Shown here: one piece after another, positions 1,509-33,924 of the stretch | Position numbering within the stretch: position 1 is the stretch's first letter | Layout: every line of letters starts with the position of its first letter | Source: Sipunculus nudus | Taxonomy: Eukaryota; Annelida; Sipuncula; Golfingiida; Sipunculidae | Assembly: GCA_026874595.1 (NCBI GenBank) | Contig: CM049307.1 | Span: forward strand, 27,502,362-27,566,361 | Length of the DNA: 64,000 nt | Direction of reading: 5' to 3' | Program-made: the position numbers and the translations under genes | Notes under the pieces: generated by a model | What the model was told of the DNA's origin: nothing | Database searches by the model: none | Seen by the model: only the letters and a program-made list of their open reading frames with translations

Positions 1509-4500
1509 ATGGTAAATATATCCGAAAAATCTACCGAAATTTCGAGCCATCCACGGCTGATTTTGATGGAATTTTACAAAATTACATCTGCGGTATTATC
1601 TCAACATATTATTATCTACGTTGAATCGATGGATCAACTACAATATTTACTTGTATTTACAGGCCGGTGGAAAAGCAGGTAAAGATTCAGGAAAAGCAAA
1701 GGCGAAGGCCGTTTCCAGGTCAGCAAGAGCAGGACTTCAGGTAAATATCTACAATTTAGCCTCTTTTCTTATGCATCGATTTGAAAATATGTTTTGTGAT
1801 CACAGAAGTCTCAATATATGTGTGTATTAGTTCGTAAATTGAAAATTCTTCTAATGTCGCCCGCACCCTTTTGTCTGAGTGCCCGTAGTTTGGCCTTTGG
1901 GAACGATCTGTTTGTGCTGGGGCCTTGATCTATCATTACTTGTACTGGATCTTAATTCTAATCCGAAATTGTGGTTTGTTTTCAGTTTCCCGTCGGTCGT
2001 ATCCACAGGCATTTGAAAACAAGAACAACGAGCCATGGCCGAGTGGGAGCCACTGCGGCCGTGTACAGTGCAGCTATTCTCGAATACCTCACTGCTGAAG
2101 TAAGTGCAGTCAAAATAGTGTTTTAGATTTCCGGTTCATAACCCGATCAGTGATACTGAATTCTTGAATTATCCGCCAGCATATTATGGTAGACTCGAGA
2201 TATGTTGTTAATGGAGGAGATCTTGTGTGATCGTGAAGTTAATTTTATGTCTTCGTAATTTGGCGGGAAATTCCCAGCGTACCTCTGACATCACGGTCAC
2301 TGGGGTTGTGTTTTGAAAGCATGAATGGGGCCTCCCTCATCTGAATTTCACTTGGATTAATAAGAATACATCGATAAATTGTTAAATGAAGTTTGTGTTC
2401 AAGTCTGGCCTTTGTTCATAAGGTGCCAGATTTTAATGTTGTTGTATAGGGTTTCATTTTCAGTAAGATATTTGTATATCTGTGATGCTGATAATCATTA
2501 ATGGCATTATAATTGCTCAAGACAGGTTGTGGTACCCTTGCATGCCTAGATACCCTTGAAACTTTTTGTAACCAGATCCAAAGATAACAGGCCCATGCAA
2601 GCAAGCTACAGTTATATTGGTGCCCTTAGTTTGGTTTATACTTTTCAAGATAATAAACCTTTAAAACATTCAATATTCACATTTGTGATTTTAGATGAAT
2701 GACCATTTGTGATTCTGAGGGATATAAGCCAATATTGTAAATAACAATGATGATTTTGTGGCATATGTATGTTGACCAATTATAATCATGTTTTGTTATC
2801 AGATCTGACATATTTATATGCATTTAAAACTGAAGCATATACAAAACATTTCTAATCCCGCAGTGGTTAGTATTTGATACATTCCAGAGGATGCATTTAT
2901 GATGAAACATGTATCGTTTAGCAATAGTCAAGGTGTCTCTCTTTACCTTGTTAACCAGTATGTTAGTAATACTTGTTCATAATACATGGTCTTAATGATG
3001 AAAAGTAATTGGCCATCATCAAGTTAAAAGAAAGTCAGTTGTGTTTTTGTTTCAAAAGTGCAGTAACCAAAGGCAATATTGATTACATTATAATAAGGTG
3101 TGAATAGGATGTTTTTGAAAAACGATCTTGTTTGGGAAAAAAAATTATTGCCCATTTTTTAGCTCAGCTGACTATAAGTCATCTGAGCTATAGTCGTGGT
3201 CCATTGTCCGTCGTCTGTCCGTCCGTAGATGTGGCACGTTTTAAAACCGTAAGACCTAGGAATCCAAAATTCACCATAATGTTAGATGTCCCCAAGATCT
3301 CCTACCAAGCCGAAAACTGGGTCTTTGCGACTTCGTTCCTTTGAGAAATTAAGGAAAAACCTCAATTTTTTATTAAAATCCTATTTTCACACTTACTGCC
3401 TCATATCAAAACCACTCATCTGTTTTTCCTCATATTTACCATAAATATTCCTCTATATAGTTCCTATGTACATGCCAGAAATTAAGTCTGTAAAGTATAA
3501 ATTCCTTAAGTTGTGGGCCCAAACATATTGGACTTTGTAAAAAATCAGGAAAAATAATAACTCACTTAACATGAAAAATTTTGAAACTAGAGTCTATTTT
3601 TTCAAGTATATAACTATGTTTAATTAAGATTCAATTGTTTACCCAAAATTAGATCTGAATTTTGTAAATTTTTTAAGTTATTAGCATAAAAAAAAAATCA
3701 GTACCTTAAATTTTGCCCAACTTTGACCATGGCACGTTTTTTTCCTGTAAGCACCATTGATTTAATTTTCACAGCATGTTAACATAAATATTTAGTTTGT
3801 CTAAATCTGAAATTTGGAAATAAAAGCTTGAAAATTTAGATAGTTATTGATTTTTAGCTCAGCTGACTTTAAGTCATCTGAGCTATAGTCGTGGTCCATT
3901 GTCCGTCGTCCGTCCGTCTGTCCGTCCGTCCGTCCGTAGATGTGGCACGTTTTGAAACCGTAAGACCTAGGAATCCAAAATTCGGCATAATGTTAGATGT
4001 CCCCAAGATCTCCTACCAAGCCGAAAACTGGGTCTTTGCAACTTCGTTCCTTTGAGAAATTAAGGAAAAACCTCAATTTTTTATTAAAAACCTATTTTCA
4101 CACTTCAGGACTGCCTAATATCAAAACCACTCATCTGTTTTTCCTCATATTTACCATAAATATTCCTCTATATAGTTCCTATGTACATGCCAGAAATTAT
4201 GTCTGTATTATTTAATTTAAAAAAGTTATGGGCCCAAACATAATGCATTTTGTAAAAAATCAGGAAAGATATTTGATCACTTAACACAAAAAATGTTAAA
4301 GCTATCGACCTTTTTTCCAGTAATATAACTTTAATTAATCAAAATTAAATTGTATACCCAAAATTAGATGAAAATCTTTTAAATTTTCTAAAATATTAAT
4401 AAAAATAAAAAATTGGTACCTTAAATTTTGCCCAACTTTGACCATGGCACGTTTTTTTCCTGTAAGTACTGTGGATTTAATTTTCACAGCATGTTTTTGT

Positions 4501-7500
4501 TAGCATTTCAACTGTTAACACCAAAAATTTGAAACCAGTTGATCAAAAACTGTAGATTTTAATAAGTTTTCAAGCACCATGTAACATATTGTTTACATCA
4601 AGCTAGTGTTATGCAGTTTGCAAGAGCTCAGCTCCCCAGCTTCAGCTCTTAGTTCCTTAAATTCGGCATACAGTTAGATGTCTCCAAAATCCCCTACCAT
4701 GCCAAGAATTTGGTCACTAGGACTTAATACCTTCGAGATATTAATGAAAAACTTCATTTTTCCTTTAAAAACCCATTGTTACACTTCAAGACTGCCTAAT
4801 ATCAAAACCACTGATCTGACTTTAATCATAAATAATATACATATTTTTCATTCTCTATGCACATGCCAGAATGATGTCAGTATTGCGTAATTGTTTTAAG
4901 TTATGGGCCCAAACATAATGCACTTTGTAAAAAATCAAGAAATATATTTACTCCCTTAACAAGGGCATTGCTGAAGCTAGAGATTTTTTTGTCAGGGATG
5001 TAACATTATTTAATCAAGATTCAATTGAATACCCAAAATTAGTTCTGAATTTTTCAAATTTTATAAGTTATTAGTATAAATATAAAATTAATACCTTAAA
5101 TTTTGCCCAACTGTGACCATGGCACGTTTGTGTTCTGTGAGCACTGTTGATATAATTTTCATATCATGCACACATTAGGATTTCAGCTTTTTAGTTTAGA
5201 AAGCTGAAAGAAATTGGCCAAAAATTGTAGCTTTTATTAATGTTTTTATGAGACCCTGTCAGACTTTGGCTCTCTCCAGCCCCTCTTTAGTCACCTGTAT
5301 GTTGAACTTGTTGACCTTTCATCAAATTATGCACGCTTGAGGCGAGGCATACAGGAATTCAGGCAGCTTATGGCCAGCCACAGTTGATCCAGGTGTCCAA
5401 CCCAACTCATCTAGTAGTTTTAACCAGCAACATAACAATAAACAATAAATTAATAAATTTTAATTGGTTTTTAATAACAAATTAAAGAAAAATAGAAAAG
5501 GAATTTGTTAGTTTAGAATAACAGGAAATTAACTTGCAGTTACTGATGATATAAGAATCTTGTATCGATGGGTAGAATGTCACATATTCCAAATAACACC
5601 ATGCAGTCACCTATGGCATTTTTCAGTTAAATTTTAATGATAAAGAAGTAAATCATATTATTCATTACTAATCATTAGGGATCATATGAAGGAAATTAAT
5701 GATAGACAAAGATGCAGTTGATAATATTAATCTAGATTCCTACTGTGTCTAGTGTGTACATTGATGTGAAATTAGTCCAAAATGAATTTTTTACAGTTAT
5801 TTTTTAATATAAATAAAAGCCATAAAACCAGGTACTTATGATCATTATTTAAATGTGTGAATTTTGTATATTCTGGATTCTCAACATCATTGGTTGGTGA
5901 AACTGAATAAATACCAGACATGGTGCGAATACTTTGTAATTGTATTTAAATATGAATATGATTATGTACTCCATTATAAAATTTCTTGCATAAAGAATAG
6001 GAATTCAGGTAAAAATGAAAGTATATGAATACTCGTGCAAATACTTTCAAAATGTATTCATGAATGCATTCATGAATATATTCTTTAATATTATTTTAAT
6101 AATCATATCAGTTATATTTAATTTAAAAAAATCATGATTCTCTTATTATTTTTTATAAAAATTATATTTGGGACAATATTTGTAATTTTTTTTAATAAAT
6201 AGTTAAACTCTTATATTATATGTTCTGCTTATAAGTTATATGGCCAAGTCAAAATCTGTGTGACAATAGTACTCCATTTGTTAATAAAATAAATGAAATC
6301 AATCCTCTTCCCTGTCTCCAAAGGTACTATCAAAATCATACATAAGCTAAACAACAACAACTCATAATACAGCTTATATTTATTACCACACAAAACCAGC
6401 ATGTGCCTCATTTCTAAATTATATTTTTTTATCATATATAACAGCTGAGCGTCGTGACCCATAGGTCCCTTGTTTTTCTAACTGCATTTTCTTAGATTTT
6501 ATAGGGAAAAAAGCTAAAAAGGCTTTAAAAATCTTCTTCTCCGAAACTGTCCAGCCAAATTGTCCAATATTGCACAGAAATGATCCCTGGAACAATCTTC
6601 CTCAAGTTTGTTCGAATGGTCCTAATTTCAGGAGGTGGAACTTTAATAAAAAAAACTGTGCAAAAAAGCATATTAAAATTTAAATCTCAGAAACGGCTGG
6701 AGCTATCATCACCAACTTTTATGCCAATGTTAGTCACATAGGTCATATCTGAAATTGAGGTATTGGTGGCGCCACCTGCATCGGCTGTTTTTGTATGGGG
6801 TCATCAGTGCTTGTATCACACTGAGGGCTACAAAATCTTCTTCTCTGAAACCATATGGCCAAAATGTTTAATATCGCACAGAAATGATCATAGGGTAGTG
6901 AATTCTGAAGTTTTTAGCTCAGCTGACTATAAGTCATCTGAGCTATAGTCATGTCCTTTGTCCGTCGTCCGTCCGGCCGGCCGTCCGTTAACAGGGCACG
7001 TTTTAAATCGTTGGACCTACAAATCCAAAATTCTGCAAACCATTAGATGTCCCCAAAATCTCCTACCATACCGAAAATTGGGTCATTAGTACTTTGTTCC
7101 TTCGAGATATTAAGGAAAAACCTCCGTTTTCCATAAAAAAGCAATTGTTACACTTCAAGTCTGCCTAATATCAAAACCACTGATCTGTTTTTGATCATAT
7201 TTAGTATTCATATTCTTCCATACATTTTCTGTGCACATACCAAAAATTAGGTGAGTATTGGGTATTATTTTGAAGTTATAGGCCCAAATATAATGCAATT
7301 TTTTAGCTCAGCTGACTATATGTCATCTGAGCTATAGTCATGGTCCATTGTCCGTCCGTCCGTCCGTAGATGTGGAACGTTTTGAAACCGTAAGACCTAG
7401 GAATTCAAAATTCCGCATAATGTTAGATGTCCCCAAGATCTCCTACCAAGCTGAAAACTGGGTCTTTGCGACTTCGTTCCTTTGAGAAATTAAGGAAAAA

Positions 7501-10500
7501 CATCAATTTTTTATTAAAATCCTATTTTCACACTTCAGGACTGCCTAATATCAAAACCACTCATCTGTTTTTCCTCATATTTACCATAAATATTCTTCTA
7601 TATAGTCCCTGTGTACATGCCAGAAATTAAGTCTGTTAAGTATAAATTCTTTAAGTTATTGGCCCAAACATAATGCATTTTGTAAAATATCAGGAAAGAT
7701 ATTTGATCAGTTAACACAAAACATGTTAAAGCTATGGACCTTTTTTTCCAGTAATATAACTTTAATTTATCAAAATTAAATTGTTTACCCAAAATTAGAT
7801 GAAAATCTTTTAAATTTTTTAAAATATTAATAAAAATAAAAAATTGGTACCTTAAATTTTGGCCAACTTTGACCATGGCACGTTTTTTTCCTGTAAGTAC
7901 TGTGGATTTAATTTTCACAGCATGTTTTTGTTAGCTTTTCAACTGTTAACACCAAAAATTTGAAACCAGTTAATCAAATACTGTAGATTTTATTCAAGTT
8001 TTCAAGCACCATGTAACATTGTTTACATCAAGCTAGTGTTATGCAGTTTGCAAGAGCTCAGCTCCCCAGCTTCAGCTCTTAGTTCCTTAAATTCGGCATA
8101 CAGTTAGATGTCTCCAAAATCCCCTACCATGCCAAGAATTTGGTTACTAGGACTTAATACCTTCAAGATATTAATGAAAAACTTCATTTTTCATTAAAAA
8201 CCCATTGTTACACTTCAAGACTGCCTAATATCAAAACCACTGATCTGACTTTAGTCTCACAACTTTGACCATGGCACGTTTGTTTCCTGTGAGCACTGTT
8301 GATATAATTTTCATATCATGCACACATACAAACCACTCATCTGTTTTTCCTCATATTTACCATAAATATTCTTCTATATTGTCCCTGTGTACATGCCAGA
8401 AATTAAGTCTGTTAAGTATAAATTCTTTAAGTTATTGGCCCAAACATAATGCAATTTTTTAAAATATTAATAAAAATAAAAAATTGGTACCTTAAATTTT
8501 GGCCAACTTTGACCATGGCACGTTTTTTTTCCTGTAAGTACTGTGGATTTAATTTTCACAGCATGTTTTTGTTAGCTTTTCAACTGTTAACACCAAAAAT
8601 TTGAAACCAGTTAATCAAATACTGTAGATTTTATTCAAGTTTTCAAGCACCATGTAACATTGTTTACATCAAGCTAGTGTTATGCAGTTTGCAAGAGCTC
8701 AGCTCCCCAGCTTCAGCTCTTAGTTCCTTAAATTCGGCATACAGTTAGATGTCTCCAAAATCCCCTACCATGCCAAGAATTTGGTTACTAGGACTTAATA
8801 CCTTCAAGATATTAATGAAAAACTTCATTTTTCATTAAAAACCCATTGTTACACTTCAAGACTGCCTAATATCAAAACCACTGATCTGACTTTAGTCTCA
8901 CAACTTTGACCATGGCACGTTTGTTTCCTGTGAGCACTGTTGATATAATTTTCATATCATGCACACATACAAACCACTCATCTGTTTTTCCTCATATTTA
9001 CCATAAATATTCTTCTATATTGTCCCTGTGTACATGCCAGAAATTAAGTCTGTTAAGTATAAATTCTTTAAGTTATTGGCCCAAACATAATGCAATTTTT
9101 TAAAATATTAATAAAAATAAAAAATTGGTACCTTAAATTTTGGCCAACTTTGACCATGGCACGTTTTTTTCCTGTAAGTACTGTGGATTTAATTTTCACA
9201 GCATGTTTTTGTTAGCTTTTCAACTGTTAACACCAAAAATTTGAAACCAGTTAATCAAATACTGTAGATTTTATTCAAGTTTTCAAGCACCATGTAACAT
9301 TGTTTACATCAAGCTAGTGTTATGCAGTTTGCAAGAGCTCAGCTCCCCAGCTTCAGCTCTTAGTTCCTTAAATTCGGCATACAGTTAGATGTCTCCAAAA
9401 TCCCCTACCATGCCAAGAATTTGGTCACTAGGACTTAATACCTTCAAGATATTAATGAAAAACTTCATTTTTCATTAAAAACCCATTGTTACACTTCAAG
9501 ACTGCCTAATATCAAAACCACTGATCTGACTTTAGTCTCACAACTTTGACCATGGCACGTTTGTTTCCTGTGAGCACTGTTGATATAATTTTCATATCAT
9601 GCACACATACAAACCACTCATCTGTTTTTCCTCATATTTACCATAAATATTCTTCTATATTGTCCCTGTGTACATGCCAGAAATTAAGTCTGTTAAGTAT
9701 AAATTCTTTAAGTTATTGGCCCAAACATAATGCAATTTTTTAAAATATTAATAAAAATAAAAAATTGGTACCTTAAATTTTGGCCAACTTTGACCATGGC
9801 ACGTTTTTTTCCTGTAAGTACTGTGGATTTAATTTTCACAGCATGTTTTTGTTAGCTTTTCAACTGTTAACACCAAAAATTTGAAACCAGTTAATCAAAT
9901 ACTGTAGATTTTATTCAAGTTTTCAAGCACCATGTAACATTGTTTACATCAAGCTAGTGTTATGCAGTTTGCAAGAGCTCAGCTCCCCAGCTTCAGCTCT
10001 TAGTTCCTTAAATTCGGCATACAGTTAGATGTCTCCAAAATCCCCTACCATGCCAAGAATTTGGTTACTAGGACTTAATACCTTCAAGATATTAATGAAA
10101 AACTTCATTTTTCATTAAAAACCCATTGTTACACTTCAAGACTGCCTAATATCAAAACCACTGATCTGACTTTAGTCTCACAACTTTGACCATGGCACGT
10201 TTGTTTCCTGTGAGCACTGTTGATATAATTTTCATATCATGCACACATACAAACCACTCATCTGTTTTTCCTCATATTTACCATAAATATTCTTCTATAT
10301 TGTCCCTGTGTACATGCCAGAAATTAAGTCTGTTAAGTATAAATTCTTTAAGTTATTGGCCCAAACATAATGCAATTTTTTAAAATATTAATAAAAATAA
10401 AAAATTGGTACCTTAAATTTTGGCCAACTTTGACCATGGCACGTTTTTTTCCTGTAAGTACTGTGGATTTAATTTTCACAGCATGTTTTTGTTAGCTTTT

Positions 10501-13500
10501 CAACTGTTAACACCAAAAATTTGAAACCAGTTAATCAAATACTGTAGATTTTATTCAAGTTTTCAAGCACCATGTAACATTGTTTACATCAAGCTAGTGT
10601 TATGCAGTTTGCAAGAGCTCAGCTCCCCAGCTTCAGCTCTTAGTTCCTTAAATTCGGCATACAGTTAGATGTCTCCAAAATCCCCTACCATGCCAAGAAT
10701 TTGGTCACTAGGACTTAATACCTTCAAGATATTAATGAAAAACTTCATTTTTCATTAAAAACCCATTGTTACACTTCAAGACTGCCTAATATCAAAACCA
10801 CTGATCTGACTTTAGTCTCACAACTTTGACCATGGCACGTTTGTTTCCTGTGAGCACTGTTGATATAATTTTCATATCATGCACACATAAGGATTTCAGC
10901 TTTTAAGTTTAGAAAGCTGAAAGAAATTGGCCAAAAATTGTAGCTAATGTTTTTATGAGACCCTGTCAGACTTTGGCTCTCTCCAGCCCCTCTTGAGTCA
11001 CCTGTATATTGACCTTGTTGAACTTTCAGCAATTTATGCATGCTTGAGGCGAGGCATACACGGGAATCCAGGCAGCTTATGGCCAGCCACAGTTGATCCA
11101 GGTGTCCAACCCAACTCATCTAGTAGTTTTAACCAACAACATAACAATAAACAATAAATTAATAAATTTTTATTGGTTTTTAATAAAAAATTAAAGAAAA
11201 ATAGAAAAGGAATTTGTTAGTTTATAATAACAGGAAATTTACTTGCAGTTACTGATGATATAAGAATCTTGTATCGATGGATAGAATGTCACGTATTCCA
11301 AATAACACCATGCAGTCACCTATGGTATTTTTCAGTTCAATTTTAATGATAAAGAAGTAAATCATATCATTCATTACTAATCATTAGGGATCATATGAAG
11401 GAAATTAATGATAGACAAAGATGCAGTTGATAATATTAATCTAGATTCCTACTGTGTCTAGTGTGTACATTGATGTGAAATTAGTCAAAAATGAATTTAT
11501 TACAGTTATTTTTTAATATAAATAAAAGCCATAAAACCAGGTACTTATGATCATTATTTAAATGTGTGAATTTTGTATATTCTGGATTCTCAACATCATT
11601 GTTTAGTGAAAACTGAATAAACACCAGACATGGTGCGAATACTTTGTAATTGTATTTAAATACGAATATGATTATGTACTCCATTATAAAATTTCTTGCA
11701 TAAAGAATGGGAATTCAGGTAAAAATGAAAGTATATGAATACCAGTGCAAATACTTTTAAAATGTATTCATGAATGCATTCATGAATATATTCTATAATA
11801 GTATTTTAATAATCATTTCAGTTATATTTCATTTTAAAAAATCACATGATTCTCTTATTATTTTTAATAAAAATTATATTTGGGACAATATTTATTATTA
11901 TTTTTTAATTAATAGTTAAACCCTTATATTATATATTCTGCTTATAAGTTATATGGCCAAGTCAAAATCTGTGTGACAATAGTACTCCATTTGTTAATAA
12001 AATAAATGAAATCAATCCTCTTCCCTGTCTCCAACGGTACTATCAAAATCATACATAAGCTAAACAACAACATCTCATAATACAGCTTATACTTATTACC
12101 ATACAAACCAGCATGTGCCTCATTTCTAAATAATATTTTTTTATCATATATAACAGCTGAGCGTCGTGACCCATAGGTCCCTTGTTTCGCAATTCCTGCA
12201 GATATTGGCCTGATTTTTAGTGTGTAGGCAGATAATGACCAGTTACAGATCAAGTTCACGTTTTGTCCCAGTTGACCTACTTTTGACTGTTTTACGGCTC
12301 CTAAACTTAGAAAATATCATGAAAAATAGAAATTTTCATGACAAATGTACACATGTACAGACTTTTTTTCGCAATGCCTGCAGATATTGGCCTGATTTTT
12401 GGTGTGTGGGCAGATAATGACCAGTTACAGATTGAGTTCGCGTTTCGTCCTGGTTGACCTACTTTTGAACGTTTTACGCCTCCTTAACTTAGAAAATTTC
12501 ATGAAAAATAGAAATATTCATGACAGATACACATGTACAGACTTTTTTTCGCAATGCCTGCAGATATTGGCCTGATTTTTTGTGTGTTGGCAGATAATGA
12601 CCAGTTACAGATCGAGTTCACGTTTTGTCCCAGTTGACCCACTTTTGACCATTTGACGGTGCTCTAACATAGAAAATTTCATAAAAAAGTGCACATGTAT
12701 GGACTTTTTTTCGCAGTGCCTGCAGATACGGGTCTGATTTTTGGTGTGTAGGCAGAAAATGACCAGTTACAGATCGAATTCTTGTTTTGTCCCAGTTGAC
12801 CTACTTTTGACCATTTGACTACTCCTGAACATAGAAAGTTTCATGAAAAATAGAAATTTTCATAACAAATGCATATGTACTGACTTTTTTTCCTCAATGC
12901 CTGCAGATACCACCCTGATTTTTTATGTGTGGGCAGATAATGACAGTTACAGATAGAGTTCGATTTTGTCCTGGTTGACCTACTTTTGATTGTTTTACGG
13001 CTCCTAAACATAAAAAATTTCATGAAAGACAGAAATTTTTATGGAAAATGCACATGTATGGACTTTTTTTCACAATGCCTGCATATACTGGCATGATTTT
13101 TGGTGTGTTGCTTGATAATGACCCGTTACAGATCGAGTTTGCATTTTGCCCTTGTTGACCTACTTTTGACCATACGACATCTCCTGAACTTAAAAAATTT
13201 TTCAAAATTTTACAAATGTTTCTAATTTGCCCCAGGCGGGGGCATTCGTGTCGTTCCGACACATTTAGTTTTATCAAATTTACTGAATCTTTTATTTCAG
13301 TGAATAAAATTAAGCAAGAAATGAAAACTCCAATCTGCAAAACTTTTTAATAATGATTCAAGGAATATTGTGGCATTATTTTCTTTTAAATTCAGTTTAA
13401 ACATTTGTGAATTAAAGATAATAAAATATACATGTGTGCATAATATGACCCGATATGAGCTACACTCTGGATATATAATGATTGTATCTTAGAATACTGA

Positions 13501-16500
13501 TATTTTAACTTATATTTTCATATTTTTTTTATTACAAATTTATAAAACATGTAAATAAAAAAAAAAGAATTATAAAACTATTAATGGAGAAAGAGGGTAT
13601 GCTAAAAAATAGGCTTTTATATAAACTTAAATTCATTAGTCCCTTGAAAGTGAAATAAAGGTATTAGTCCCTTCTGTCAACTTGCCTGTCTGGCTGTAAA
13701 TTTTTCATATGCATCACAGTATCTCAAAACTTTTACTGTTTTTCTTCAGGATAGTCTTGTCAGAGTGTTAGTTTTGCAATCATATATTTAGAATTTTACT
13801 ATAACCAAGTAAAAGGACCTATTTCCTCTTAGCTTCTCATATGCTGATATAAATGAAAAATTTTACATTAGAATATTTTGCATATTTTGCATTTGCAAAA
13901 ATTTCAAACTTCAGCTGAGCGCTGTGACCCATGGGTCCCTTGTTTTTCTGTAGTCACTTGCTTTGATTACAGATGCAGGGTCCCACTCCAGGTCACTGGA
14001 AGTCAGCTATGCCAGGGTTTCTGATTTGTTACAGTCACTGGGGGAGATCCCCTGCTGTGCTGTTACAGGTGTACAGTTATTCTCATATCACCACCCCAAT
14101 CACCACCCCCCCCCCCCCCCCCCCCCCCCCCCCCGCAAACCCAACCCACCAAGTGTTATGCAGTAATTGTTATTGTTTTCACTGTATCTCCTTAATTGTA
14201 ATGCTGTTTCCACTCCGATATGCAAAAACTTTCCTTGAAAAAATAATTCAAGGTGTAATCCAGAAGAAGCAATGTTGTGTAATGTAGCATTTTTAAAGAA
14301 ATCAATTTTCTTTTAAATGATTTTAACAAATATAAAGGAACCCATCAGTATGCTTAAAATATTATAAAATATGAAGTACATTATGGATAAATAAAGACAC
14401 AATTAAAAATTGTGAAATCTAAATCAAGTATTATTAGCTCAGCTGACTATAAGTCATCTGAGCTATAGTCGTGGTCCTTTGTCCGTCGTCCGTCTGTCCG
14501 TCCGTCCGTCCGTCCGTCCGTCCGTAGATGTGGCACGTTTTGAAACCGTAAGACCTAGGAATCCAAAATTCAGCATAATGTTAGATGTCCCCAAGATCTC
14601 CTACCAAGCCGAAAACTGGGTCTTTGCGACTTCGTTCCTTTGAGAAATTAAGGAAAAACCTCAATTTTTTATTAAAAACCTATTTTCACACTTCAGGACT
14701 GCCTAATATCCAAACCACTCATCTGTTTTCCCTCATATTTACCATAAATATTCTTCTATATAGTTCCTATGTACATGCCAGAAATTATGTCTGTATTATA
14801 TAATTTAAAAAAGTTATGGCCCCAAACATAATGCATTTTGTAAAAAATCAGGAAAGATATTTGATCACTTAACACAAAACTTGTTAAAGCTATGGACCTT
14901 TTTTCCAGTAATATAACTTTAGTTTATCAAAATTAAATTGTATACCCAAAATTAGATCAAAATCTTTTAAATTTTTTAAAATATTAACAAAAATAAAAAA
15001 TTGGTACCTTAAATTTTGCCCAACTTTGACCATGGCACGTTTTTTTACTGTAAGTACTGTGGATTTAATTTTCTCAGCATGTTTTTGTTAGCATTTTGTC
15101 TGTTAACACCAAAAATTTGAAACCAGTTGATCAAAAACTGTAGATTTTATTCAAGTTTTCAAGCACCATGTAACAAATTGTTTACATCAAGCTAGTGTTA
15201 TGCAGTTTGCAAGAGCTCAGCTCCCCAGCTTCAGCTCTCAGTTCCTAAAATTTGGCATACAATTAGATGTCTCCAAAATTCCCTACCATGCCAAGAATTT
15301 GGTCACTAGGACTTAATACCTTTGAGATATTAATGAAAAACTTCATTTTTCCATTAAAAACCCATTGTTACACTTCAAGACTGCCTAATATCAAAACCAC
15401 TGATGTGACTCTAATCATATATAATATACATATTTTTCTATACATTCTCTATGCATATGCCAGAAATGATGTCAGTATTGCGTAATTGTTTTAAGTTATG
15501 GGCCCAAACATAATGCACTATGTAAAAAATCAAGAAATATATTTACTCCCTTAACAAGGGGATTGCTGAAGCTAGAGTTTTTTTGCCAGGGATGTAACAT
15601 TATTTAATCAAGATTCAATTGAATACCCCAAATTAGTCCTGAATTTTTCAAATTTTATATGTTATTAGTATAAATATAAAATAAGTACCTTAAATTTTGC
15701 CCAACTTTGACCATGGCACATTTGTTTCCTGTGAGCACGGTTGATATAATTTTCATATCATGCACACAAGGATTTCAGCTTTTTAGTTTAGAAAGCTGAA
15801 AGAAATTGGCCAAAAATTGTAGCTTTTATTAATGTTTTTATGAGACCATGTCAGACCTTAACTCTCTCCAGCCCCTCTTGAGTCACCTGTATGTTGACCT
15901 TGTTGAACTTTCAGCAAATTATGCATGCTTGAGGCGAGCCATACACTGTTGCAGATAGGCAGCTTATGGCCAGCCACAGTTGATCTAGGTGTCCAACCCA
16001 ACTCATCTAGTAGTTTTAACCAACAACATAACAATTAACAATAAATTAATAAATTTTAATGTTTTTAGCTCAGCTGACTATAAGTCATCTGAGCTATAGT
16101 CGTGGTCCATTGTCCGTCGTCCGTCTGTCTGTCCGTCCGTCCGTCCGTCCGTCCGTCCGTAGATGTGGCACGTTTTGAAACCGTAAGACCTAGGAATCCA
16201 AAATTCAGCATAATGTTAGATGTCCCCAAGATCTCCTACCAAGCCGAAAACTGGGTCTTTGCGACTTCGTTCCTTTGAGAAATTAAGGAAAAACCTCAAT
16301 TTTTTATTAAAATCCTATTTTCACACTTCAGGACTGCCTAATATCAAAACCACTCATCTGTTTTTCCTCATATTTACCATAAATATTCTTCTATATAGTT
16401 CCTATGTACATGCCAGAAATTAAGTCTGTTAAGTATAAATTCTTTAAGTTATGGGCCCAAACATAATGGACTTTGTAAAAAATCAGGAAAAATATTTACT

Positions 16501-19500
16501 CACTTATCATGAAAAATTTTGAAACTAGAGTCTGTTTTCCCAAGTATATAACTATGTTTAATTAAGATTCAATTGTTTACCCAAAATTAGATCTGAATTT
16601 TGTAAATTTTTAAAGTAATTAGCATAAAAATAAAATCAGTACCTTAAATTTTGCCCAACTTTGACCATGGCACGTTTTTTTCCTGTAAGTACCATTGATT
16701 TAATTTTCACAGCATGTAAACATAAATATTTAATTTGTTTAAATCTGAAATTTGGAAGTAAAAGCTTGAAAATTAAGCTAGTTATTGATTTTTTTCTTGA
16801 GGCTCTATTGTAGTCATTTGGTTTGTTTACAGATTACAGATGCAGGGTCCCACTCCAGGTCACTGGAAGTCAGCTATGCCAGGGTTTCTGATTTGTTACA
16901 GTCACTCGGGGAGATCCCCTGCTGTGACAGGTGTACAGTTATTCTCATATCACCACCCCAATGACCCCCCCCCCCCCCCCCCCAAACACAACCCACCAAG
17001 TGTTATGCAGTATTGTTATTGTTTTCACTGTATCTCCTTAATTGTAATGCTGCTTCCACTCTGATATGCAAAAACTTTCCTTGAAAAAGTAATTCAAGGT
17101 GTAATCCAGAAGATGCAATGTTGTGTAATGTAGCATTTTTAAAGAAATCATTTTTCTTTTAAATGATTTTACCAATCATAATGGAACCCATCAGTATGCT
17201 TAAATTATGATAAAATATGAAGCACATTATGGATAAATAAAGACACGATTAAAAATTGTAAAATCTAAATCAAGTATTTTTTTTAGATATTTATTGTTTT
17301 GCAGATTTAAAAGATATTTTTTTGTGGTGAAAAATAAATAAACATTTGTATGCATGATGTGGTGTTATCTGACAAGATTGAGATTTATGATGATGCAATT
17401 GAGAATTATGAATCAACTTTTATATTCAGATATATATGTTATATTGAAAATGTATAGAAATATAAACTTAAATTTTAAAAAAAATTGATGTGATAAAAAA
17501 ATGAGGATTTATTACAAACATTTGTTCATTATTTTCCTGCATCAGCAGAATTTGAGATCAGGCTTTGTTTGCCATGTTTTATGTTGTTAATTAGTTATAT
17601 TTCAACTGTATACATTTCATTAAAAAAAACATATATTTAATAATATATATTATACAAAAAAAAAAAGATTCGATTGAACAAATGTGTAAACTACTGAAAT
17701 GTCAACAGTTAATCGAAAAGCCAACTAATGATCATGGTAATTGTACAGATCATTTTTTCACAAACTGCTCACATGCTTCAGTTTCAACATTAGGAAACAC
17801 ATGGTCAGGTCACAAAATATTATTTGCAACAATTTCTTGCTCATCAGTACAAACCAATCATATAAACCAACCATGGCCTTTATAACCTCTTCCTCTTACA
17901 CTTTATCTCCATTTGATATTATTTTAGATTTTTACCTTCAAGGTTAACTTCAGCTGAGCACAGTGACCCATAGGTCCCTTGTTTTAATAACAAATTAAAG
18001 AAAAATAAAAAAGAATTTGTTAGTTTATAATAACAAGAAATCAACTTGCAGTTACTGATGATAAAAGAATCTTGTATCGATGGATAGAATGTCACGTACT
18101 CCAAATAACACCATGCAGTCACCTATGGTATTTTTCAGTTCAATTTTAATGATAAAAAAGTAAATCATATTCATTACTAATCATTAGGGATCATATGAAG
18201 GAAATTAATGATAGACAAAGATGCAGTTGATATTATTAATCTAGATTCCTACTGTGTCTAGTGTGTACATTGATGTGAAATTAGTCCAAAATGAATATAT
18301 TACATTTTTTTTTAAATATAAATAAAAGCCATAAAACCAGGTCTTTTGATCATAATTTAAATGTGTGAATTTTGTATATTCTGGATTCTCAACATAATTG
18401 TTTAGTGAAAACTGAATAAATGCCAGTAATGGTGGGAAAACTTTGCAATTGTATTTAAATACGAATATTAATATGTACTCCATTATAAAATGTCTTGCAT
18501 AAAGAATTGGAATTCAGGTAAAAATGAAAGTATATGAATACCAGTGCAAATACTTTCAAAATGTATTCATGAATGCATTCATGAATATATTCTTTAATAT
18601 TATTTTAATAATCATTTCAGTTATATTTCATTTTAAAAAATCATAAGATTCTCTTGTTATTTTTAACAAAAAATTATATTTGGGACAATATTTGTAATTT
18701 TTTTAATAAATAGTTAAACTCTTATATCATATGTTCTGCTTATAAGTTATATGGCCAAGTCAAAATCTGTGTGACAATAGTACTCCATTTGTTAATAAAA
18801 TAAATGAAATCAATCCTCTTACCCGTCTCCAAAGATAATATCATAATCATACATAAGCTAAACACCAACAACTCATAATAAAGCTTATATTTATTACCAC
18901 ACCAAACCAGCATATGCCTCATTCCTAAATCATATTTTTTAATCATATATAACAGCTGAGCGCCGTGACCCATAGGTCCCTTGTTTTTAGATATTTATTG
19001 TTTTGCAGATTTAAAAGATATATTTTTGTGGTAAAAAATAAATAAACATTTGTATGCATGATGTGGTGTTATCTGACAAGATTGAGATTTATGATGATGC
19101 AATTGAGTATTATGAATCAACTTTTATATTCAGATATATATGTTAAATTGGAAATGTATAGAAATATAAACCTAAATTAGAAAATAATTGATGTGATAAA
19201 AAAATTAGGATTTAATACAAACATTTCTTCATTATTTTCCTGCCTCAGCAGAATTTGAGATCAGGCTTTGTTTGCCCCGTTTTATGTTGTTAATTAGCTA
19301 TATTTCAACTGTATACATTTCATAAATAAAATACATATATATTCAATAATATATATTATACAAAAAAATAGATTCAATTGAACAAATGTGTAAACTACTG
19401 AAATGTCAACAGTTAATCGAAAAACCAACTAATGATCATGGTAATAGTACAGGTCATTTGTTCACAAACTGCTCACATGCTTTAGTTTCAACATTAGGAA

Positions 19501-22500
19501 ACACATGGTCAGGTCACAAAATATTTTTTGCAACAATTTCTTGCTCATCAATACAAACCAATCATATAAACCAACCATGGCCTTTATTACCTCTTCCTCT
19601 TACACTTAATCTCCATAAGATATTATTTTAGATTTTCACCTTCAAGGTTAACGTCAGCTGAGCACAGTGACCCATAGGTCCCTTGTTTATATTCTGCCGA
19701 AAACTCTTTTGAGTAGTAAACTTGATAAAAAGCTTGAAAATTTCAGAGGTTTAGGTGGAATTTAAATTGAAAATATGGAGGGTTCAGCTCTAAAATTTTT
19801 AATAACAATCCACATGCATATTATTTTGTCATTGATCAGAAATAAAATGTCTCTGTTCTTTTATGAACATGCAACACAGACAGTTGTCACATCTTTTGCA
19901 AAAAAAAAACTATAATCAGGGAGTTCCAGCCTTTATTAAATAGCTAAGTGTAATGTGTGCATCACCAAACAACATTGGCTATTGTTCAAAATATAGAAAA
20001 CTTTTTAAAGCAAGCGTTAGGATCCCTGCATCCTCTCTGTCATGTTGTAAAAAATGATCTTAGTTTCACAGTGCCAATTATATTTTGCCATTATAAAATT
20101 GCTCCATGGTTCATTAATGGTCAGTAAAACAGCATATGGGTTTTCTCCACTGCATTTTAATTTGGTTGCCATAATTATTTCATACAGTTATCTTAATAAT
20201 CCTTTCAACCCGAAAATTTACTAGACACTTGGCTAAGGCTTATTACTGATATGACTGAGTAACAAATGTTATTTTATCACAAGCGGATCCAGGATTATGA
20301 AAAGGAGGGGTCCAACCCAGGAGGACGAATGATAAAACCTAAAAAAGGTCCCCAGGTCTAAGATAAGGGGGGGGGTCCGGGCCTCCTGGTTGGCTTCTGT
20401 TTAATATTGTTGATTATTGTATTCTGTGTGCCCTGCATAACAGTGATGGCATGTGGCACGTCATAATTTTTAGCTCAGCTGACTATAAGTCATCTGAGCT
20501 ATAGTCGTGGTCCATTGTCCGTCGTCCGTCCGTCCGTAGATGTGGCACGTTTTGAAACCGTAAGACCTAGGAATCCAAAATTCAGCATAATGTTAGATGT
20601 CCCCAAGATCTCCTACCAAGCCGAAAACTGGGTCTTTGCAACTTCGTTCCTTTGAGAAATTAAGGAAAAACCTCAATTTTTTATTAAAAACCTATTTTCA
20701 CACTTCAGGACTGCCTTATATCAAAACCACTCATCTGTTTTTCCTCATATTTACCATAAATATTCCTCTATATAGTTCCTATGTACATGCCAGAAATTAT
20801 GTCTGTATTATTTAATTTAAAAAAGTTATGGGCCAAAACATAATGCATTTTGTAAAAAATCAGGAAAGATATTTGATCACTTAACACAAAAAATGTAAAA
20901 GCTATGGACCTTTTTTCCAGTAATATAACTTTAATTAATCAAAATTAAATTGTATACCCAAAATTAGATGTAAATCTTTTAAATTTTTTAAAATATTAAT
21001 AAAAATAAAAAATTTGTACCTTAAATTTTGCCCAACTTTGACCATGGCACGTTTTTTTCCTGTAAGTACTGTGGATTTAATTTTCACAGCATGTTTTTGT
21101 TAGCATTTCAACTGTTAACACCAAAAATTTGAAACCAGTTGATCAAAAACTGTAGATTTTAATCAAGTTTTCAAGCACCATGTAACATATTGTTTACATC
21201 AAGCTAGTGTTATGCAGTTTGCAAGAGCTCAGCTCCCCAGCTTCAGCTCTAAGTTCCTTAAATTCGGCATACAGTTAGATGTCTCCAAAATCCCCTACCA
21301 TGCCAAGAATTTGGTCACTAGGACTTAATACCTTCGAGGTATCAATGAAAAACTTCATTTTTCCATTAAAAACCCATTGTTACACTTCAAGACTGCCTAA
21401 TATCAAAACCACTGATCTGACTTTAATCATAAATAATATACATATTTTTCATTCTCTATGCACATGCCAGAATGATGTCAGTATTGCGTAATTGTTTTAA
21501 GTTATGGGCCCAAACATAATGCACTTTGTAAAAAATCAAGAAATATATTTACTCCCTTAACAAGGGCATTGCTGAAGCTAGAGATTTTTTTGTCAGGGAT
21601 GTAACATTATTTAATCAAGATTCAATTGAATACCCAAAATTAGTTCTGAATTTTTCAAATTTTATAAGTTATTAGTATAAATATAAAATTAGTACCTTAA
21701 AGTTTGCCCAACTGTGACCATGGCACGTTTGTTTCCTGTGAGCACTGTTGATATAATTTTCATATCATGCACACATAAGGATTTCAGCTTTTTAGTTTAG
21801 AAAGCTGAAAAAAATTGGCCATTATTGTAGCTTTTATTAATGTTTTTTATGAGACCCTGTCAGACTTTGGCTCTCTCCAGCCCTTCTTGAGTCACCTGTA
21901 TGTTGACCTTGTTGACCTTTCATCAAATTATGCACACTTGAGGAGAAGCATTCAGGAATCCAGGCAGCTCATGGCCAGCCACAGTTGATCCAGGTGTCCA
22001 ACCCAACTCATCTAGTAGTTTTAACCAACATCATAACAATAAACAATAAATTAATAAATTTTTATTGGTTTTTAATAAACAAATTAAAGAAAAATAGAAA
22101 AGGAATTTGTTACTTTATAATAACAGGAAATTAACTTGCAGTTACTGATGATATAAGAATCTTGTATCGATGGGTAGAATGTCACATATTCCAAATAACA
22201 CCATGCAGTCACCTATGGCATTTTCCAGTTCAATTTAAATGATAAAGAAGTAAATCATATTATTCATTACTAATCATTAGGGATCATATGAAGGAAATTA
22301 ATGATAGACAAAGATGCAGTTGATAATATTAATCTAGATTCCTACTGTGTCTAGTGTGTACATTGATGTGAAATTAGTCAAAAATGAATTTTTTACAGTT
22401 ATTTTTTAATATAAATAAAAACCATAAAACCAGGTACTTATGATCATTATTTAAATGTGTGAATTTTGTATATTCTGGATTCTCATCATCATTGTTTGGT

Positions 22501-25500
22501 GAAAACTGAATAAATACCAGACGTGTTGCGAATACTTTGTAATTGTATTTAAATACAAATATGATTATGTACTCCATTATAAAATTTCTTGCATAAAGAA
22601 TGGGAATTCAGGTAAAAATGAAAGTATATGAATACTCGTGCAAATACTTTCAAAATGTATTCATGAATGCATTCATGAATATATTCTTTAATATTATTTT
22701 AATAATCATATCAGTTATATTTCATTTTAAAAAAATCATATGATTCTCTTATTATTATTTATAAAAATTATATTTGGGACAATATTTGTAATTTTTTTTT
22801 ATAAAAGTTAAACTCTTATATAAAATGTTCTGCTTATAAGTTATATGGCCAAGTCAAAATATGTGTGACAATAGTACTCCATTTGTTAATAAAATAAATG
22901 AAATCAATCCTCTTCCCTGTCTCCAAAGGTACTATCAAAATCATACATAAGCTAAACAACAACAACTCATAATACAGCTTATACTTATTACCACACAAAA
23001 CCAGCATGTGCCTCATTTCTAAATAATATTTTTTTATCATATATAACAGCTGAGCGTCGTGACCCATAGGTCCCTTGTTGTTGCTTATTAAGCATGAAAG
23101 ACAAAAAGAGCCCAAAGCAGGGGTAATTAATTCCACAAATTTGCTTGTTTATTTTGAAACAGCAAGGGTTACTCATTAGCTCATTCGTGATATTGGATTT
23201 TTACTGTTAGAGGTAGGAGATAATCAAAAAACTAATTACTAGCATAACCTGAAAGTGCATGTGTTATACAATTTAGTCTGGAAAGGTAAGGGGGGGACTG
23301 ACAAAACTCTGAACCATTAAATACCAGTTGGCTGTGTCCAGCTAGTAATTGTGCAGTTTGACAAAATCATTAAAGGCAAAAATGAGTTGAAAGCTCATAA
23401 CTTCATTGGATTTCATATATATAAGATAGACTGAAAAAATGTAATTATGTTCAGGAAATTTACATCAGTGGCCCAATTTAAAAAGTAGTCAATCTGTTTA
23501 GTTTTACAAACTCTGTCCCCCATGATTGGGTTTGTTGGCTCTTTTGGCTGGCAGGCCGTGTCTCAGTTTTGTCATGGCCACTGCTATTTGCTACATTTGG
23601 ATGTATCATTCCAGAAAAGTGCCTTGAAATTGTCATGGAATTTTGAAAATGGACCATGGAAAATCAGGAATTTTGTTTTTACAGCAGGTCATTGGAAGGG
23701 AGTATTATGGTATACCAATAGTCCAGTGGTTAACTTTTAGTGTCGCTGCAGTAATGTACCAGGGCTTTTGGTTGATTTTTGCAAAAACTCGCCATAATTA
23801 CTAACCAATAGATTATCTCATCCGGCTTCAATTAAAATGGGCAACATCCACACATATTCAATATCATGGGTCAAAAGGCTTTGTGGTGTCGCAGCAAAAA
23901 CTTATGAAGAATATGAAGGATCTTAATAAAACTCATCAGAAATGTAAATCAATAAAATATCTCACCTGAGTTTGATTTCCAGCAAAATCCATGCATATTT
24001 AATGAGGTCAAAGGTCACTGCACTTTGGAGGCACCTTGGTGATTTACCAAAAATCCTATGGGTTTCATTAAACTCCTTAACATATTTACAAATAGTTTCC
24101 CACCAGAATTACTTTCTCATAAAATTTATGCATATTTAATGAGGTCAGAGGTGCACAACGGGTGTATTATGGACATTTGCAGTGCTCTTGTTGTGGAATG
24201 TGGGGACTTTTTACCACCAACATATCTAAGATACTTTCTTCTTTTTATTTACATAGGAAACTTACTATCAACACCATTATTTGCATTTAAGAAACTCTAG
24301 ATTAAGTAGTTGTGCAAACTTAGTATGTACATTCCCACAGTGCCCCTGCTGAGGGTAGGCCAACAGGAGCTCACAGTGCTCAGAAACGATGGAGAGCCAT
24401 TGGATACTGTATAAATTGTTTTGGCTTTTAAGGATCTCTCATCTAAACAAAAAACAAAGACCTGTGGGCAGTGGTCTTTTTTGGCTCTTACAGGAGGGTG
24501 CTCCTGCTATTGATGTCTTCATACTTGAGGTTTCATAGATGTTATTCTTCTCTAGAGACAAAAGTACGGGGAGTGGGCTTCCTTCTTTAAAAAAATTCTT
24601 GCATTAGACAAAGTTTTGTATCCTATTTTCACTTTGTGATCTGTTGGTAATGTTTTCTAGTCTTTGTGAAGTGAATATATGTGCTTTGAGCTTGATTGAT
24701 TAATGGTAGAAGCATATGGCGTATAATTCCAGACTGTAAGGAAAAGTAGGGGGAAATAAGCTACAAAAATGTAGTTGTCCAAACCGTTACCATGTTACTT
24801 GAGTTAAGACTGGAAAAGTTCTTGAACCCCAATCAAGAGCTGTGAGTGACAGATCCTTTTGGAATCAATGTTTAAATCGTGGGTAACATATGGGATTATT
24901 TAGATGAACATGTATCAGACTTGGCGGTATTGATACATCATTTGCATGTGGTTAACTTAGGTCATTTGTTTTATATGATTGGGCTGGGTACAGGCTTTAA
25001 AGTGTCTACACAGAAATTAAAAATTTGTTAATTAATAATTATACAAACATTTGTGAAAAGAAAAAAAAAATTCCTAAATTTAATTTGGATCTGTTTTATC
25101 TGATAGGGCTAGGTATAGGCATAAGGGTATCAACAGTGTATTTGAAATTCTTTAATTATGAGAATTTATGTGTACTTGAATCACAAGAAAAAAATTGCTT
25201 CTACTTTTTTTGTGATCAGTTCTGTTTTATCTAATTGGACTTATAACTGCCTCTTTATGTTTACACAGAATTTTCAACATGCAGGTGGGACCACCTTATA
25301 TACCAACTTCCGTGATGGGAGTTTATTTTTAATGCACATGAAGATTTCATATTTTTATATATTTTGGGGTTTACAGATTGGTATTACATCATTCACATTC
25401 TTTTGATGGCATTATGCTCTGTTGCAGGTTCTGGAGTTGGCAGGTAATGCCAGTAAAGATCTGAAAGTGAAGAGAATAACACCTCGTCACTTGCAGCTTG

Positions 25501-26507
25501 CCATCAGAGGAGATGAAGAATTGGACTCTCTCATCAAGGCTACCATTGCAGGAGGAGGTCAGTATCTTATCATTCATTATCATGATTGACATATTGTGTA
25601 TTTATTCAGTCAGAGCACTTTGTGAGTTTACACATCTGATTTTAAGAAACTGCGGTATGTTCAGTATTGTCACCTTAAATTAACTGTATTATCCTGAAAT
25701 ATGTGCATCTATTAAAAATGTCAGATTTTTAGGATACACCTATTAAGTGGTATTGCAATTCATAACAAATCTTATGTGACAACAGGTAACATGGTGAATT
25801 TGTCGAAATTATTGTTTTAATGATTATCACAGATTAATATTATTTTTTAACTGGCTTATCCTAACCATTAATTTTTTTGCACCAGTTAATTTCAGCCCAG
25901 ATGTGACATGGTACATGAAAACTAGCTGAACCCAACGTGCCATATTATATAATAGAATCAAATTGTATTTGTTGATGGTCGAGAAAAACATTGTTGAAGT
26001 CAGATAGTGCATCTAAGATAGATGTTGCAGCAATATCTGTGTACATGTTTTGTTTTGTTATTGAAATAAGCATTACCCTTACTTTATTATCAACAAATTG
26101 GGAAACTTCATCTGGAACTTAGTCTACGCTAGCTTCTCACACCACTTGTGGCTGGACAAAATAGCAGCGTTAAATACGGTCAAAATATGGGCCAGATTGG
26201 GAAACAATTTTAGTTGCCAACACATTGCATTGTTCTCAACAGTTCCATACGTAAAATTTGAAAATCAGGGCCATGATCACAGAGGAGTTCAGTGACAAGA
26301 ATTAAAGTGATCACTGTCAATTATGATTTGAGTTTACTTTTGAAAGAAACATGCCAGAGATAATTACTTAATTGAACTGTTTCAGTATAAAAGGATTTGT
26401 AATCATTTGACTAATCATGTTTTTGGTTCTCTTTTTTCCCTGCAGGTGTCATCCCTCACATCCACAAGTCTCTGATTGGCAAGAAGGGCTCACAGAAGGC
26501 AGCATGA
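1509..26507 (+). CDS. H2AZ: Histone H2A.Z (H2A.Z/H2A.V variant), five exons
   Basis: Exons are 1509-1511 (ATG only), 1663-1740, 1986-2099, 25428-25557 and 26446-26507, totalling 387 bases for 128 residues plus stop, the same length as vertebrate H2A.Z. Introns 1-3 are phase 0 and intron 4 is phase 1; all are GT-AG (donors gtaaat, gtaaat, gtaagt, gtcagt). The protein begins [20 protein letters not shown], has the histone-fold stretch [20 protein letters not shown], and carries the H2A.Z-diagnostic segment [20 protein letters not shown] followed by [16 protein letters not shown]. The residue pattern is nearer vertebrate H2A.V/H2A.Z.2 (Ala14, Thr38). It replaces H2A in nucleosomes in a replication-independent way and acts at promoters and in DNA repair. 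As expected for such a variant it is intron-containing and polyadenylated. Oddities are a start exon holding only the Met codon and a roughly 23.3-kb third intron filled with transposons. The C terminus lacks the SQ(E/D)-hydrophobic tail of Drosophila H2Av. Confidence 0.97.
2100..3157. other. Start of H2A.Z intron 3, no feature recognised
   Basis: Unique-looking AT-rich intron sequence between the exon 3 donor and the first transposon. No reading frame, RNA gene or repeat was recognised. Confidence 0.6.
3855..6474 (+). mobile_element. Helentron-like family 1, subfamily A copy (A1), full length
   Basis: A 2.6-kb element with head AGCTCAGCTGAC at 3856, a TCCG microsatellite at about 3900-3940, two diverged internal units of about 680 bp (around 3990-4660 and 4670-5270), and a tail with CAGCTGAGC, GACCCATAGGTC and CCCTTG ending near 6474. 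It sits in a T run inside B1. Its length and order match the copy at 20471-23078. No transposition protein is encoded. Confidence 0.85.
6475..6915 (+). mobile_element. Family 2 Helentron-like fragment
   Basis: This stretch matches the interior of the family 2 element at about 32184-32640, sharing the CTAACTGCATTTTCTTAG opening and the GGTGGCGCCACC palindrome (6765-6776). It lacks both family 2 ends and lies between A1 and the next family 1 head. How it came to lie there is unclear. Confidence 0.65.
7304..12185 (+). mobile_element. Family 1 subfamily A copy (A2), enlarged by tandem array
   Basis: The head is at 7305 and the tail ends near 12185 (CAGCTGAGCG, GACCCATAGGTC, CCCTTG). It follows subfamily A order but is about 4.9 kb instead of 2.6 kb because of a 640-bp tandem array at 7815-10887. 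Its second internal unit is shortened relative to A1. It interrupts the C copy. Confidence 0.8.
7815..10887 (+). repeat. Tandem array, about 4.8 copies of a 640-bp unit
   Basis: Units start near 7815, 8455, 9096, 9736 and 10376 (periods 640, 641, 640, 640); the last is partial and ends at 10887 before the normal subfamily A sequence resumes. Copies are nearly identical: one T-run length change near 8521, and a T/C difference in the phrase TTTGGTTACTAG that reads T, T, C, T, C across the five copies. The junction joins CATGCACACATA of internal unit 2 to CAAACCACTCATCTG of unit 1, which points to unequal exchange between the two internal units. Four short frames of 65 codons recur only because the DNA repeats. 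Confidence 0.95.
12186..13275 (+). mobile_element. Family 4 Helentron-like 3' portion with ~180-bp tandem units
   Basis: About six imperfect copies of a unit of 165-180 bp, each opening with TTTTTTCGCAATGCCTGCAG (near 12186, 12366, 12546, 12710, 12890, 13067). The block closes with GCGGGGGCAT and a GTGTCG-TTC-CGACAC hairpin at about 13246-13262. GCGGGGGCAT is the exact reverse complement of ATGCCCCCGC at 39320, the likely head of this family. The 5' end is missing here. Confidence 0.65.
13945..14434 (+). repeat. B1 middle piece with C tract
   Basis: This segment is duplicated at 16809-17284 inside copy B2. Both carry TTACAGATGCAGGGTCCCAC, then a pure C run (about 14107-14134 here), then a shared AT-rich stretch. 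It is part of the subfamily B consensus rather than a separate insertion. Short open frames across it are low-complexity artefacts. Confidence 0.8.
14435..18984 (+). mobile_element. Family 1 subfamily A copy (A3), split by nested B2
   Basis: Head at 14436 with a long TCCG run; left part to about 16062, right part 17984-18984 ending in CAGCTGAGCG, GACCCATAGGTC, CCCTTG. Joining the flanks of the B2 insertion gives the AATTTTAA..TTTTTAATAACAAATT sequence seen uninterrupted in A1 near 5455-5485. A3 in turn interrupts B1 in the phrase AATCAAGTATT, which B2 has whole at about 17271-17290. Confidence 0.85.
16066..17983 (+). mobile_element. Family 1 subfamily B copy (B2), full length, youngest of nest
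   Basis: Uninterrupted 1.9-kb element: head AGCTCAGCTGAC at 16067, TCCG microsatellite about 16110-16160, C tract about 16966-16982, tail CTTCAGCTGAGCACAGTG and CCCTTG ending near 17983. It lies within A3, which lies within B1, so it is the most recent insertion of this chain. It serves as the local reference for the broken copy B1. Confidence 0.88.
19687..20470. other. Intron sequence between nested elements
   Basis: AT-rich intron sequence after B1. The only recognisable item is the half MITE at about 20281-20385, listed separately. No coding potential was seen. Confidence 0.5.
20281..20385. mobile_element. Half copy of GGATCC-type MITE
   Basis: It begins AAGCGGATCCAGGATTATG and continues with GGGGTCCAACCCAGGAG, as in the elements at 264 and 43935, then ends in a G run with no matching right terminal repeat. 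Confidence 0.55.
20471..23078 (+). mobile_element. Family 1 subfamily A copy (A4), full length
   Basis: A 2.6-kb uninterrupted element with head at 20472, TCCG microsatellite, two internal units (about 20590-21240 and 21270-21850) and tail CAGCTGAGCG, GACCCATAGGTC, CCCTTG ending at about 23078. It is collinear with A1 and is the cleanest reference for subfamily A in the window. It is non-coding. Confidence 0.88.
23079..25427. other. End of H2A.Z intron 3, mostly unannotated
   Basis: AT-rich intron sequence up to the exon 4 acceptor. A phrase ATGCATATTTAATGAGGTCA occurs twice (about 23992 and 24128) and suggests an old degenerate repeat. About 24960-25280 has imperfect repeats of a TCTGTTTTATCTGATAGGGC-like phrase. 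No gene was recognised. Confidence 0.5.
25558..26445. other. H2A.Z intron 4, no feature recognised
   Basis: An 888-base intron with donor GTCAGT and acceptor CCCTGCAG. No recognisable repeat or gene was seen in it. Confidence 0.8.
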
Positions 26508-33800: not shown

Positions 33801-33924
33801 TCTTCTCATGTTTGTTCAAATGGTTTGTGTTGGATAAATTTTAGCAGAGTTACATAACAGGCCAAGATTGTGTATGTTTCTTGAATAGGTTGAGAAACTG
33901 CCAACTGTTTCAGATTTGGCAACA

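Follow-up and report, generated by a model that had tools for sequence, protein, structure and literature searches.

Nested Non-Autonomous Helentrons in an Intron of the Sipunculus nudus H2A.Z Gene and a Candidate Composite Insertion

The H2A.Z Gene and the Nest in Its Third Intron

A stretch of 64,000 nucleotides of the Sipunculus nudus genome (GenBank assembly GCA_026874595.1, contig CM049307.1, positions 27,502,362 to 27,566,361, forward strand), here called the window, starts with a gene for the histone H2A.Z, in one intron of which transposable elements of Helentron type lie inserted one within another. The nest itself is real, and all seven copies that form it are, judged by their ends, non-autonomous Helentrons (HINEs). 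Within the oldest copy of the established insertion series lies a block of about 10 kb, whose components moderately likely entered together as one composite unit.

The five exons of the gene splice to a protein of 128 residues that matches the Pfam families Histone and Histone_H2A_C as well as H2A.V/H2A.Z chains in the PDB, and all four introns have GT..AG borders. The location of the nest within one histone intron, as originally predicted, is thereby specified as intron 3, of which about 82% (19,141 bp) is made up by the block of the outermost element B1 (3158-19687, 16,530 bp) and the separate copy A4 (2,611 bp).

1509-1511, 1663-1740, 1986-2099, 25428-25557 and 26446-26507, + strand: exons of the H2A.Z gene, splicing to the 128-residue protein
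2100-25427, + strand: third H2A.Z intron (23,328 bp), in which the nest lies, defined by exon splicing and the Pfam and PDB matches

The copies belong to one family, termed family 1, and are designated A, B, and C according to their interior sequence or head; D designates a piece of a second HINE-like family, and E a stretch that may belong to C or to a further HINE. The nest is composed as follows.

3158-3852, + strand: first piece of B1 with its head, 92% identical to B2 1-732
3853-13945, + strand: block of 10,093 bp (A1, D piece, and C with A2), candidate single composite entry into B1; the flanking B1 is collinear with B2 except for about 13-15 nt
3853-6474, + strand: A1, whole HINE copy with B1 on its left and D on its right, 97% identical to A4
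6475-6912, + strand: D piece, a stretch from the interior of a second-family HINE-like element, matching 32172-32636 at 83.3% over 467 columns
6913-7301, + strand: C head with D on its left, exact head motif, 77-80% identical to the A and B heads
7302-12186, + strand: A2, HINE copy interrupted by a tandem array, 94.6% and 95.0% identical to A4 in the two parts that flank the array
8330-10890, + strand: four tandem units of 640 bp built from A2 sequence, 0-2 differences per 640 bp
12187-13268, + strand: E, a 180-bp satellite in about 5.6 copies with a hairpin end after it; a left end was not seen
13269-13945, + strand: 3' part with a family 1 tail, either C's own or another element's, tail motif with one mismatch; its interior matches nothing else in the window apart from short hits that resemble chance
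13946-14432, + strand: second piece of B1, 90% identical to B2 748-1220
14433-16064, + strand: first piece of A3, 93% identical to A4
16064-17983, + strand: B2, whole HINE copy within A3, supported by an empty site
17984-18985, + strand: second piece of A3, 93% identical to A4
18986-19687, + strand: third piece of B1 with its tail, 94% identical to B2 1216-1923
20469-23079, + strand: A4, whole uninterrupted HINE copy with head and tail motifs, reference for comparisons of A copies

Ends and Anatomy of the Elements

The seven family 1 heads (3161, 3856, 6916, 7305, 14436, 16067, 20472) and seven tails (6474, 12185, 13944, 17983, 18984, 19686, 23078) of the original prediction were all recovered, the tail positions lying 1-2 bases past the CTTG end. 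A 33-base head motif, allowing up to 3 mismatches, has 8 matches in the window, the single one outside the nest being at 29098, and the tail motif has 9, of which 7 are within the nest and the others at 36655-36688 and 56250-56283; all of them are on the + strand, and 100 shuffles gave no match to either motif.

The designation as Helentron-like is supported, HINE ends being present in 7/7 copies. The 5' subterminal inverted repeat (subTIR) AGCTCAGCTGAC occurs in every nest head, accompanied by an inverted copy of itself (12-mer, 1 mismatch, offset 17), and CAGCTGAGC is found in every nest tail 22 nt before CTTG, after which T's follow. A GTCC-rich stretch is visible by eye downstream of all seven heads and is scored by Tandem Repeats Finder at three of them (3901, 14481, 16112). 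None of the 8 stop-to-stop open reading frames of at least 90 amino acids in the nest has a Pfam match at E 0.01, so that Rep/helicase coding is not seen there.

The head motif had no match in a viral contig collection or in a genome contig collection, and the tail motif and the E end had none in a viral contig collection. Literature searched with the head and tail motif strings gave no match on transposons by title, and the same holds for the E motif string among the matches listed.

Empty Sites, Order of Insertion, and Divergence

When B2 is cut out, A3 continues like A1, A2, A4, and A5 (an older A copy outside the nest), and when A3 is cut out, B1 continues like B2, in both cases within one or two bases, a residue that partly depends on where the cut was placed. 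T runs are restored by both removals, as well as by removal of the element D' from A5, with no target duplication. Because these two empty sites within the nest are near-clean, B1 must have been inserted before A3 and A3 before B2; thus the predicted order B1, A3, B2 and the predicted insertion into T runs are both supported. Three checkable junctions had been proposed, of which B2 in A3 and A3 in B1 are confirmed, while the third, that of A1 and C in B1, is not, since agreement of B1 with B2 is restored only by removing 3853-13945 (10.1 kb) whole. Similarly, the balanced pairing of heads and tails stands for the A and B pairs, which are backed by interior sequence, but its brackets conceal that a fragment from a different family separates A1 and C; for the pairing of the C head (6916) with the tail at 13944 the window offers no second C copy for comparison.

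The B1 and B2 copies differ at 81 of 1860 sites. When changes are polarised in the head by A1-A4 (9 versus 5, with 5 unpolarised) and in the tail by a B fragment at 55976 (8 versus 5), derived sites number 17 in B1 and 10 in B2 (p = 0.25), and the terminal branches of the head tree are 0.027 and 0.011, respectively. Over 2035 shared columns of the five A copies the private changes are 15 in A1, 25 in A4, 39 in A2, 53 in A3, and 119 in A5, counts that depend on the copies sampled, A1 and A4 sharing 12 further sites; with A5 used for polarisation, no significant difference appears in any of the 6 A-copy pairs (p 0.08-0.85). The direction of divergence therefore agrees with the nesting order without statistical power, which does not prove that order, and no contradiction of it was found. 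The expectation that B2 would be the youngest copy did not emerge from these data, A1 having the fewest private changes (15/2035) and the B1/B2 polarisation being non-significant.

A Piece of a Second Family between A1 and C

The stretch of about 440 bp between A1 and C has no match to B by BLAST within the window. Instead, 6469-6913 matches 32172-32636 at 83.3% over 467 columns (BLAST), and in global alignment the piece and its relative show 66 differences at 437 sites. The relative lies in the interior of the element D'.

32030-34829, + strand: D', second-family HINE-like element within A5, carrying the relative of the D piece; it has an 11-bp subTIR (1 mismatch) and a hairpin, and its removal restores a T run of A5

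The ends of D', with the head TTTTTTAGC and the tail CTTGTTTTT, resemble those of family 1; it ends in CTTG-T and sits in a T run of A5. Its hairpin is equalled by 8 of 200 shuffles, and its subTIR alone is weak evidence, as 129 of 2000 pairs of stretches drawn at random from the window pass the test in its 10-base form. To the left and right of the matching interior, nothing of D' is represented in the nest, except for repeats in the D piece and three 23-bp matches to A copies (E = 0.094).

The D piece starts at the T run of A1's end and stops at the T's of C's start. Since it stands at both inner flanks, A1 sits between B1 and D, and C sits between D and B1. The separate insertion of A1 and C into B1, as originally predicted, is consequently not borne out, and most likely the two were not inserted independently into B1. 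The corresponding explanation, in which the intervening stretch would be B1 sequence lost from B2, accounts for the balance of heads and tails; however, the stretch belongs to the interior of D', which otherwise has no likeness to B, and its two borders are at the same time borders of inserts, so this explanation is very improbable and was set aside.

The surroundings of D' form an older three-level nest (28764-38167), where F, a degenerate family 1-like element with repeats of about 342 bp, holds A5, which holds D' and two further inserts, namely 29361-30859 (ACCGTAT...ATACGGT ends) and 34908-36107. The flanks are concordant for D' in A5 and roughly so for A5 in F.

A2, Its Array, and the Satellite E

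On the left A2 is flanked by the C head, and on the right by a T run of the 180-bp satellite (5.6 copies). The satellite ends in a hairpin of -5.8 kcal/mol, which is equalled by 3 of 200 shuffles. The exact words CCCCCGCC and CCCCGCCT, expected at a head matching E, are absent from the + strand of the window. Satellite and hairpin together look like the right part of another HINE without its left part, as in the case of D; this assignment is made by resemblance to the plan of left flank, array, and right flank, in a window with no second C or E copy for comparison. Alternatively, the C head with A2 could possibly represent a two-headed unit of the kind described in Fusarium.

The array units of A2 are composed of stretches corresponding to A4 coordinates 258-405, 516-962, and 1243-1311 and carry internal deletions relative to A2 sequence; the first block is 98.4% identical over 128 bp to A2's own 7554-7681. 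Since the units are built of A-element stretches, the first of which is so close to A2's own, the array (8330-10890) grew from the element's own sequence, unless it was expanded by the assembly. Separately, A4 positions 112-627 and 794-1303 are about 77.5% identical, which marks an older internal duplication carried by A elements.

A Proposed Composite Entry and Its Alternatives

The following course of events can be proposed. The non-autonomous HINEs would be mobilised by a Rep/helicase acting in trans, which was not found here. B1 entered the intron, A3 was inserted into a T run within B1, and B2 into one within A3, as the empty sites show. Elsewhere, as the D flanks suggest, A1 and C would each have entered T runs about 440 bp apart within one D element. 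A rolling-circle event starting at the A1 head may then have overrun the A1 tail, picked up the D stretch and C with A2, and ended at the family 1 tail at 13945, after which the 10.1-kb product would have entered one T run of B1; A4 is a separate insertion. Judging from the sequence, it is moderately likely that A1, D, and C entered B1 in this manner, as one unit of about 10 kb produced by bypass of A1's terminator. The block has a family 1 head at one end and a family 1 tail at the other, and A1 groups with A4 at 19/23 informative sites spread along the element.

Several observations weigh against this composite entry. Within the window, neither a donor nor another copy of the block was seen. 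At the junction 3852/13946, B2 holds about 13-15 nt that are absent from B1 (B2 733-747 unmatched in blastn), and the sequence beyond A2 also has a mismatched flank. The 4 of 23 sites that dissent from the grouping of A1 with A4 all fall within the last 1,050 columns, and the divergence between A1 and A4 climbs along the element from 13/1165 to 45/1439 (permutation p = 0.011), which could mean an exchange inside A1; divergence between A3 and A4 climbs likewise (p = 0.005), six pairs having been tested and the p values being uncorrected. Finally, a 4-bp stem forms in 8/8 family 1 tails folded, with a stability no greater than that of shuffles, the seven nest hairpins being matched by 23-55 of 200 shuffles and that of A5 by 162 of 200.

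Two more specific proposals were also considered. A splice inside A1 is not clearly supported, as A1 stays with A4 at most informative sites and A3-A4 shows the same divergence step. An unusually weak hairpin as the cause of bypass is not supported either, the tails of A3 and A4 being as weak as those of A1 and A2 (-2.6 to -2.7 kcal/mol); the hairpins of B1 and B2 (-4.1 kcal/mol) are about equal to that of C (-4.2 kcal/mol).

The best surviving alternative is that a whole D element was inserted into B1, that A1 and C entered it in place, and that D subsequently lost its left part (about 150 bp in D') and its right part (about 2.2 kb in D') by end-to-end deletion via short homology between the heads of D and A1 and between the tails of C and D. 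The similarity of the D' ends to family 1 ends would provide such homology, the heads sharing TTTTTAGC and the tails CTTGTTTT, and the resulting structure would be identical to the letter with that left by a composite move, which is a further point against the latter. However, this course calls for two independent losses of sequence, both falling exactly at the ends of elements, and the nest contains no remnant of the left or right part of D, which makes it unlikely.

Somewhat less likely still is the origin of the mismatched flanks from exchange between copies at different loci, either by gene conversion or by unequal crossing over between A copies, or from a misjoined assembly. The A copies are 94-98% identical and hence good substrates, the A1-A4 divergence step (uncorrected p) points in the same direction, and the A2 array units, being 99.7-100% identical, are difficult to assemble. 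On the other hand, A1 keeps its affinity to A4 along its length, a comparable step is present in A3-A4, and an exchange on the right-hand side would need to have taken place within the tail of about 33-39 bp that is common to C.

Other Features of the Window

Between 3158 and 38167, 8 of 8 nested insertions with a nameable host share the orientation of that host by hand count, not all of them being independent. Such one-sidedness could result from strand-biased insertion or from loss of inverted pairs. Richness in T runs finds no support as its cause, the T runs of at least 5 numbering 18 in A4, 11 in B2, and 18 in A1, against 19, 13, and 17 such A runs, respectively. The minus strand carries, at 46723-48842, a head (48842) and a tail (46757-46723) that are related but degenerate, the sole minus-strand ends seen besides the inverted repeats of the + strand heads.

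Two further repeats were noted, an array of about 45 units of 38 bp at 58828-60544 and a sequence at 20275-20352 that resembles 263-306, 35658-35715, 43081-43133, and 43945-44014 in either orientation, perhaps belonging to another repeat family.

Comparison with Known Systems and Implications

The elements share with Cg_HINE of Crassostrea gigas, as described by Vojvoda Zeljko et al. 2020, the 5' subTIR, the complementary inverted repeat, the GTCC-type microsatellite, the 3' subTIR with, in the present case, a putative palindrome, and the preference for TT (PMC7492417), a likeness of anatomy. Central repeats of 160-180 bp in some elements are a further likeness, whereas A1, A3, A4, and B2 carry no such array and the unit of A2 is 640 bp long and self-derived; insertion of Cg_HINE in both orientations is also described (PMC7492417). 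With the DINE-1/HINE elements of Thomas et al. 2014 the anatomy, the T-rich target, and paralogous empty sites without target modification are in common (PMC4067079).

End bypass or composite transposition has been suggested for HINEs and Helentrons as the origin of clusters and of host DNA taken along (PMC4067079); there composite movement is given as a possibility, whereas here one candidate locus with mismatched flanks is available. Transposition past the 3' end to a downstream stop, taking flanking DNA along, is likewise described for Helraiser/Helibat, where an estimated 11.7% or so of events of the intact Helraiser element capture a neighbouring cassette via 3' end bypass (PMC4778049). 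That element is a Helitron with a CTAG end and its bypass is experimentally proven, whereas the present case is of Helentron type and is read from the sequence alone.

The short C head next to A2 resembles the composite FoHelis of Fusarium, in which several 5' ends are explained by self-insertion; the unit of that model ends at the first 3' end, whereas the unit proposed here would overrun a first 3' end (PMC5148889). Complex loci of C. gigas contain truncated or tandemised Helitron parts inserted within other elements, and in the available part of that account no junction-by-junction reconstruction is seen (PMC12628747). Nests of this general sort are thus already known, and it is the mismatched-flank case that the present locus adds.

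The A2 array provides an example of the self-derived route, one of two repeat origins discussed for HINEs (PMC7492417). A wider proposal, that composite transposition accounts for most of the growth of HINE nests, with a cluster being carried as a unit past several terminators into the next nest, is doubtful at present and is offered tentatively. If it is true, a bracket diagram would record joint moves besides single insertions, and such moves would have left their scars at three inner flanks of this nest, those of A1, C, and A2. The locus also cautions against reading a nesting diagram as a clock where elements travel together. Owing to the relative of the carried fragment within the same window, the locus may serve as a checkable case of composite or end-bypass movement.

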